Source: Vibrio gallaecicus (GTDB lineage: Bacteria > Pseudomonadota > Gammaproteobacteria > Enterobacterales > Vibrionaceae). From it: a DNA stretch of 64,000 nucleotides. The notes under the pieces were generated by a model. The model made no database searches, had not been told where the DNA came from, and saw only the letters and a program-made list of their open reading frames with translations. Position numbers and translations under genes: made by a program. The stretch is from assembly GCF_024347495.1 (NCBI RefSeq), contig NZ_AP025490.1, positions 682,001 to 746,000 of the forward strand. Reading direction: 5' to 3'. Positions 43,397 through 45,190 of this stretch are shown here, in pieces (positions within the stretch are counted from its first letter, which is position 1; the number at the start of each line of letters is the position of its first letter).

Positions 43397-45190
43397 ATGA
43401 CCAACAAACTCTCCCTTCAACAGCTTGAATCTTTCCTTTGGGAAACGGCTGACATTCTTCGTGGCAACATGGATGCTTCTGAATTTAAAGACTACATCTT
43501 TGGCATGATGTTCCTAAAGCGCATGTCGGATGCGTTTGAAGAAGAACAAGAGAAAGTTATTGCCTACTACCTAGGTAAAGGTAAAACACAAGAACAAGCT
43601 ATCGATCTGGCAAATGATGAAGATGAGTACGACGATACTTTTTACATGCCTGAAAGTTCCCGTTGGTCTGCGCTTAAAGACTTAAAGACTTAAAGACTTA
43701 AAGACTTAAAGCACAACATCGGTGAAAGCCTTAATAAAGCCACCGAAGCGATTGAAGAACACAACTCTGCGCTTGAAGGTGTGTTGGTCACTATCGACTT
43801 CAACATTAAGAATAAGCTTACCGATGCCAAGCTGCGTGATTTGCTCTCTCACTTTAGCCAGCACCGCTTACGTAACGAAGATTTTGAGCGCCCAGATATG
43901 CTGGGAACCGCTTACGAATACCTAATCAAGATGTTTGCCGACAGCGCAGGCAAAAAGGGCGGTGAATTTTATACCCCAAGTGAAGTGGTGCAATTGCTGG
44001 TGGCACTGTTAAAACCTCATGCGGGGATGCGTATTTACGATCCAACAACAGGTTCGGGCGGTATGCTGGTTCAAACTCGTAACCACCTTGCTAAAAATGG
44101 CGAGAACGCATCAAACCTATCGCTATTTTGGCAAGAGATGAACCTAAATACGTGGGCGATTTGTAAGATGAACATGTTCTTACATGGCGTGCAAAGTGCT
44201 GATATTCGTAAGGGCGATACTCTACGCGAGCCTAAGCATACTGAAGGCGGCGAGCTAATGAGCTTTGACCGCGTAATCGCTAACCCGCCGTTCTCACTGA
44301 AAAAGTGGGGTAAAGACGAGTGTGACAGCGATGGTTTTGGTCGCTTCCCATATGGGACTCCGCCAAAAGATGCGGGTGATTTAGCCTTTGTTCAACATAT
44401 GATCGCCAGCACCAATAATGAAGGTATGGTGGGTGTGGTTATGCCTCATGGTGTGCTATTTCGTGGCTCAAGCGAAAAAGCGATTCGCCAAGGTATTTTG
44501 GAAGACGATTTGCTAGAAGCGGTGATTGGCCTGCCATCGGGCTTATTCTACGGTACGGGCATTCCTGCATGCTTGCTTATCATCAATAAGAATAAATCCG
44601 CAGCTCGTAAGGGCAAAGTCCTGTTCATCAACTCAGAGCTTGAGTTTGAAGAGGGCAAAAACCAGAACAAACTGCGCGAGCAAGACATCACCAAGATTGT
44701 CGAAACCTTCGAAAGCCATTCATTTGAAAGTAAGTGCGATATCAAACGCTACGCCAAAGTGGTGAACTTCTCAGAAATCGCCGAGAACGATTTTAACCTC
44801 AATATTCGCCGCTATGCCGACACCTCACCACCAGCCGAGATTTTTGATGTACGTGCAATTATTCATGGTGGCGTGCCAGTGCGTGAAGTGGAAGACGAAT
44901 ACATTCAAGAAGAGATCATTCAAGGCTTTGACGTGTCGGTTGTCTTCGAGAAGAAAGATGCAGAGCCTTCAGACGATCAAGAGTACTACGTCTTCAAGCC
45001 AAGTATTGAAAGCAAAGAACAGATTCGAGAAGTGATAGAGAAAGCTGATGCGAAGGTTCTCCCCCTAACAATAAGCCAACTTGAACGCTGGTGGGATAAA
45101 TACCAAGTGTCGTTGAATGAACTTGATGAACAAGTAACGGATGCCGAGCAGGTGATGCAAGGTTACTTGAAGGAGCTGGGTTATGAGTAG
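43397..45190 (+). pseudogene. hsdM: Type I modification subunit HsdM, interrupted by an octamer repeat
   Basis: HsdM is the N6-adenine methyltransferase subunit of a type I R-M complex. The N-terminal helical domain (from ATG 43397, MTNKLSLQQLESFLWETADILRGN) runs into an 8-bp tandem repeat and meets TAA at 43691-43693. The same frame then continues to 45190 with the AdoMet motif DPTTGSGG (44039) and the catalytic NPPF (44282-44293). Removing three repeat units (24 bp) would restore one 589-residue frame reading SALKDLKHNIGE. As written, only a 98-residue fragment is made from the normal start. It overlaps hsdS by 8 bp. Confidence 0.85.
43673..43710 (+). repeat. Octanucleotide tandem repeat inside hsdM
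   Basis: Unit CTTAAAGA occurs four times plus six bases (43673-43710), uninterrupted. With 1.75 units the hsdM frame is open. With two or more full GACTTAAA units a TAA always falls in frame, because a unit starting at the third codon position reads ACT TAA. Confidence 0.95.

Follow-up and report, generated by a model that had tools for sequence, protein, structure and literature searches.

The octamer tract in hsdM and its locus

The stretch of Vibrio gallaecicus DNA analysed here (the window; 64,000 nucleotides, positions 682,001 to 746,000 of contig NZ_AP025490.1, assembly GCF_024347495.1) carries a type I restriction–modification (R-M) locus whose methylase gene, hsdM, is divided by a tandem array of the octamer CTTAAAGA. 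The array lies inside the HsdM N-terminal coding region, in the reading frame opened by ATG 43397. Tandem Repeats Finder reports a period of 8, 4.9 copies and 100% matches, and the perfect tract measures 39 bp, or 4.875 units (four copies and seven bases). A preliminary description of this DNA had located the array correctly and had given it four units and six bases ending at 43710; the tract extends one base further, and the counts of 4.75 and 1.75 units proposed there for the long and short forms are each one base short (4.875 here and 1.875 in relatives). In the HsdM frame the tract reads LKDLKT and is then stopped by TAA (43691–43693), which ends HsdM at 98 residues. The truncation by a TAA at 43691 had been described, as had the identity of the hsdM frame on both sides of the array, and translation across the tract displays both.

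In the entering frame the stop occupies tract bases 19–21, so its place is independent of how many units follow, and a TAA is present in the tract in each of the three reading frames. With a stop in each frame of the unit, every longer allele is closed. These frames bear out two earlier statements, that the short allele alone is open and that the repeat is not a simple three-phase switch. The tract has the form taken as diagnostic of phase-variable hsdM driven by simple sequence repeats (SSRs), a tandem repeat inside an open reading frame (ORF) with a unit that is not a multiple of three; the other diagnostic property, switching between an open and a closed frame on gain or loss of a single unit, is absent given the TAA in all three tract frames. 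Since that single-unit property is lacking, we do not file the array as a phase-variable hsdM, and it may still work as a very slow one. Perfect 8-bp arrays of at least three copies occurred in none of 20 base-by-base shuffled windows; the array is not a product of chance. It is also the sole exact three-unit match to CTTAAAGA in its own genome.

The PF02384 catalytic domain lies entirely 3' of the stop. The domain set of a type I R-M system is present at the locus (HsdM_N with N6_Mtase, HsdS target domains, HSDR_N with helicase), with HsdM in two pieces in place of an unbroken frame (Table 1). No lesions were found in hsdS, hsdR, PDC-M15A or PDC-M15B, all of whose frames are open. The downstream hsdM piece matches the methylase structures 7vru/7vs4 (best match, E 1e-102) and EcoR124 7bst (E 2e-53); those chains were deposited as whole subunits, whereas the hsdM frame here is cut at codon 98. 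Both genes that match the PADLOC PDC-M15A/B models sit between hsdS and hsdR, although PDC-M15A/B is only a candidate system.

Table 1 Features of the hsdM locus, in window coordinates
Feature	Position	Strand	Basis
CTTAAAGA tandem array, 4.875 copies	43673..43711	+	Tandem Repeats Finder; TAA in all three frames
hsdM upstream piece, 98 codons and TAA	43397..43693	+	HsdM_N (PF12161) profile positions 1–80
hsdM downstream piece	43694..45190	+	Rest of HsdM_N (below cut-off), N6_Mtase (PF02384); same frame
hsdS, 421 aa, open	45183..46448	+	Methylase_S (PF01420)
PDC-M15A, PADLOC phage defence candidate, 279 aa, open	46448..47287	+	Model match, E 8e-93
PDC-M15B, PADLOC phage defence candidate, 206 aa, open	47280..47900	+	Model match, E 1e-94
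hsdR, 1075 aa, open	47912..51139	+	HSDR_N, SWI2_SNF2 domains
YgjP-like metallopeptidase, overlaps hsdR end	51136..51867	+	Domain match
tmRNA gene ssrA, adjoins locus	51955..52321	-	Gene call
Direct repeat of ssrA 3' end region, left edge of probable island	40603..40653	+	Repeat match
Second copy of ssrA direct repeat, 86%, at ssrA	51910..51960	+	Repeat match

The locus is bracketed by the 51-bp direct repeats of Table 1, with the tmRNA gene beside it, and it resembles a probable island at ssrA. A Pfam scan of five neighbouring proteins, a set without the short ORFs at 41052 and 41181, recognised no integrase. Related ssrA-type repeats also occur upstream in the V. tapetis locus L003. Beside the same ssrA region in genome G085 (L088, 1501–1791), no more than about 250 bp from the beginning of this hsdM remain, after a different ORF. 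A separate 18-bp repeat in three copies (42177–42230) is found in the N-terminus of an upstream 239-aa ORF without a Pfam match.

The repeat site in relatives and constraint on the genes

A scan of genome contigs kept the best 80 of 274 relatives, which were then searched with the two hsdM pieces separately. Two of these (L077 and L080) are cut and were left out, so that 78 of 80 are readable across the site. All 78 have a single frame running through the repeat site, with no stop there. The relatives hold 15 bases at this site, equal to 1.875 units in the same phase, and mostly encode LKDLK or IKDLK. At the DNA level the perfect 15-base seed is carried by 0/78 relatives and a seed with a one-base difference by 7/78. 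One synonymous base separates the seed of the window from those of G139 (L085) and G093 (L084, which corresponds in position to V. tapetis locus L003). The near-match of these seeds at conserved LKDLK codons indicates that the near-perfect direct repeat is a by-product of those codons, and one silent change would have been enough to perfect the seed before expansion, if the events came in that order. The nearest named HsdM among the best 80 relatives is that of Vibrio tapetis subsp. quintayensis, at 91%. Three metagenome-assembled relatives (L068, L071 and L079) have one stop each elsewhere in hsdM, at codons 325–403 of the stretch read and thus distant from the repeat.

The 4.875-unit tract at the hsdM site occurs in one genome among the 329 Vibrionaceae genomes searched. 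A natural short allele, sought with an exact degenerate pattern, had matches in 0/329 genomes, and the readable relatives carry other codons there. A plasmid copy of the same allele was discarded, as the top full-length match on a plasmid has 75.6% identity (among the best 20 of 403 records), and a viral copy was likewise discarded, a 20-base flank pattern giving 0 matches. Rescue by another methylase of the same genome was also considered: of five other PF02384 places, four match the downstream piece at 24–33% and the fifth gives no match. At that identity these HsdM-like proteins appear too distant to be expected to stand in.

In an effort to gauge the age of the loss, the genes were compared with locus L003, whose matched stretches contained no stop codons. 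In hsdM, dN/dS is 0.094 in the upstream piece and 0.059 in the downstream one; that of hsdR is 0.056. Codon changes were also polarised with outgroups and set against the intact sister. The downstream hsdM piece has 8 nonsynonymous and 21 synonymous changes on this lineage versus 10 and 23 on the sister, hsdR has 6 and 37 versus 3 and 45, and the short upstream piece has 1 and 1 versus 1 and 0. No relaxed constraint in hsdM was seen in these polarised changes relative to the intact sister. This lack of visible decay suggests that the loss of hsdM is either recent or reversed now and then, two possibilities that these data do not separate. Elsewhere in the operon, identity to L003 falls to 39% for hsdS, 45% for PDC-M15B and 71% for PDC-M15A, as compared with 92–97% for hsdM and hsdR; hsdS and PDC-M15B diverge as if exchanged together.

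Unchanged constraint, and a catalytic domain located entirely downstream of the stop, would also suit a retained HsdM function, in which the downstream piece is made by re-initiation or frameshifting and acts together with the 98-residue piece. GTG 43781 is the first start codon to follow the stop in frame, and this codon or TTG 43784, about 90 bases past the stop, could serve as a start with the Shine–Dalgarno-like GAAGG upstream; the repeated C-TTA-AAG could be a frameshifting site. However, the GAAGGT is part of the coding sequence and need not act in ribosome binding, the re-initiation product would be without most of HsdM_N, and frameshifting, to judge from the sequence, would need to occur repeatedly. 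With hsdM split at this place in 0/78 readable relatives, we consider a retained function improbable.

Short arrays across the genome

The surroundings of the tract were placed in context by counting perfect arrays with 5–12-bp units and at least four copies in the window and in 60 stretches of 20 kb from the same genome (1.264 Mb, about a quarter of the genome). This sample contains 28 arrays, or 27 in 1.2 Mb without the window, with unit lengths of 5 (3 arrays), 6 (3), 7 (11), 8 (10) and 9 bp (1). Comparator genomes gave 2 arrays in 264 kb (G093), 1 in 320 kb (G139), 0 in 280 kb (G085) and 3 in 200 kb (G003), and 20 other Vibrio genomes, represented by one stretch each, gave 0 in 400 kb. The 24 other Vibrio genomes pooled thus hold 6 arrays in 1.464 Mb versus 28 in 1.264 Mb here (two-sided binomial p 2e-5). 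Outside this sample, the R-M loci of relatives contain 1 array in 1.09 Mb.

This abundance bears on whether the repeat length could be an assembly or sequencing error. Short arrays are error-prone and the tract was read from the assembly alone, but in a two-contig genome with 28 perfect arrays in the sample such repeats look like a property of the genome, and an error that adds whole perfect units is unlikely. We regard an artefact as highly improbable.

When compared with mechanical ORFs of at least 80 aa, 3/28 arrays lie inside an ORF, 4/28 overlap an ORF end by 1–13 bases and 21/28 touch none. The three inside are that of hsdM, a 6-bp in-frame array in a DUF2813/OLD-like gene and one before a NUDIX domain, the likely start of this last ORF lying downstream of its array. 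The array in the DUF2813/OLD-like ATPase gene is GCAATG x9 (L160, 7558–7612), encoding an Asn-Gly run. Other examples include AATGCAGA x12 in L127, ATCCTCT x14 in L242, and AGTTATT x17 in L158, which touches the end of a LuxR-type gene. The hsdM array looks like a member of this mainly non-coding mutational class that formed by chance inside a gene, and its membership in a genome-wide class mostly outside ORFs favours a mutational origin.

In principle, closure in every frame is no rarity for an array. A stop falls within the 24-bp super-period of 35% of 8-mers, counted in one direction, and 10/24 of the frame-shifting arrays of this genome are closed on both strands.

Exact (CTTAAAGA)3 occurs in 5/329 Vibrionaceae genomes. 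The idea that R-M genes share CTTAAAGA or carry it as a mobile element was set aside, as none was seen in hsdM of the other four genomes that carry it. G265 (L119) and G011 (L094) both have an intergenic array of 3.75 exact units beside the same gene, which we take to be an alkaline phosphatase, and the surrounding partial copies differ between the two. The match in G278 lies between genes and follows what is presumably a dehydrogenase gene; that in G324 is near a contig end and in no ORF of at least 50 aa.

Origin and reversibility of the closed allele

Slippage is the accepted cause of changes in repeat length. The data are probably best explained by a lineage-specific, slippage-type expansion that produced a null hsdM allele reverting rarely if ever. 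Such an expansion would have started from the 8-bp direct repeat that is nearly complete in the conserved stretch coding LKDLK, and multiplication of the unit would have brought in the in-frame TAA that stops HsdM before its catalytic domain. Type I cleavage needs the M2S complex, and loss of HsdM should thus also idle HsdR; neither the methylase of this system nor its HsdR, which depends on HsdM, would be active in the sequenced genome, with this defence probably switched off. A polar effect on the downstream genes is likely as well.

With a single short allele on and all longer alleles off, the null would be easy to enter and slow to leave, rather than one side of a balanced switch. By one-unit steps all neighbours of the present allele are closed, and the open form found in relatives would be several steps away and, being short, itself fairly stable. 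It is these closed neighbours and the distant open form that lead us to prefer a rarely reverting null, with slippage, inactivity and slow reversal all inferred.

Tandem repeats have been described in hsdM before, with Haemophilus as the worked case, and the octamer closed in all frames is the variant. Excerpts of PMC2651432 describe a GACGA pentanucleotide repeat in Haemophilus influenzae hsdM (Zaleski 2005, as cited there), a repeat-dependent truncated ORF at HI1287 in Rd KW20, and a one-unit change, from four to three, whose rate was measured. In both cases the coding region of a type I hsdM contains a tandem repeat with a unit that is not a multiple of three, and the Haemophilus precedent drawn in the preliminary description holds for the place and kind of element. 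It does not extend to the behaviour: there the rate was measured for a one-unit change, whereas here gain or loss of a single 8-bp unit leaves hsdM closed, each frame of the unit holding a stop. Within the genus, the portion of PMC3265528 consulted reports that most changes at six 6-bp repeats of V. parahaemolyticus involve one unit, with an overall rate of about 1e-4 per generation and a range of 0 to 2.4e-4 for five to seven units. These variable-number tandem repeat (VNTR) typing loci resemble the present tract as short tandem arrays of a Vibrio genome, and their reported changes are mainly single-unit slippage events; the six tabulated there have frame-keeping units, whereas the octamer sits in a gene and closes it. 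No published account of this motif or case was recognised in the literature on Vibrio and hsdM repeats, among the matches listed.

A working contingency switch, with frequent length changes that include multi-unit ones and some cells carrying a short open allele and active R-M, has the Haemophilus parallel in its favour: the same gene and kind of element, at a four-unit repeat with a high rate according to the excerpts of PMC2651432. According to PMC7394358, surveys count tandem repeats in hsdM as phase-variation-capable, and SSRs are present in 2% of REBASE hsdM genes, a figure from the authors' own survey. The lack of any other operon lesion and of relaxed hsdM constraint would also fit. However, one-unit steps keep the gene closed, the array belongs to a genome-wide class mostly outside mechanical ORFs, and length variation has not been seen, with a single genome carrying the tract at this site. 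A switch of this kind is thus unlikely, if by no means negligible.

Several observations weigh against a rarely reverting null. The tract is known from one genome sequence, from which copy-number change and loss of methylation are inferred. That a Haemophilus hsdM tract of only four 5-bp units changes at a high rate (PMC2651432, in excerpt) counts here too, as it means that even short tracts can be unstable, and larger single contractions do occur. Intact downstream genes suit occasional reversal equally with recency, and the small excess of nonsynonymous changes in hsdR on this lineage (6 vs 3) involves too few changes to weigh. The array comparison has its own weaknesses: sampling is uneven across the comparators, with the G093 draft covered from contig starts and 3 arrays in 200 kb coming from G003 alone, and the array was itself the reason for choosing the window.

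More tentatively, this genome may have a genus-exceptional spread of short arrays (mainly 7–8 bp, with about 22 arrays of 5–9 bp per Mb sampled), within which the hsdM array would behave like a fuse with one open allele. Unit gain would blow it easily, and it would be slow to reset, all three frames of the unit being closed. Defence could then be shed in bursts and regained only by rare larger contractions, a proposal that we hold as doubtful at present. With 35% of 8-mers holding a stop in their super-period, long arrays of such units cannot toggle by single units, and repeat surveys of hsdM must check the reading frames of the unit. An array-rich Vibrio genome such as this one would allow the length and stability of repeats to be tracked alongside gene loss.
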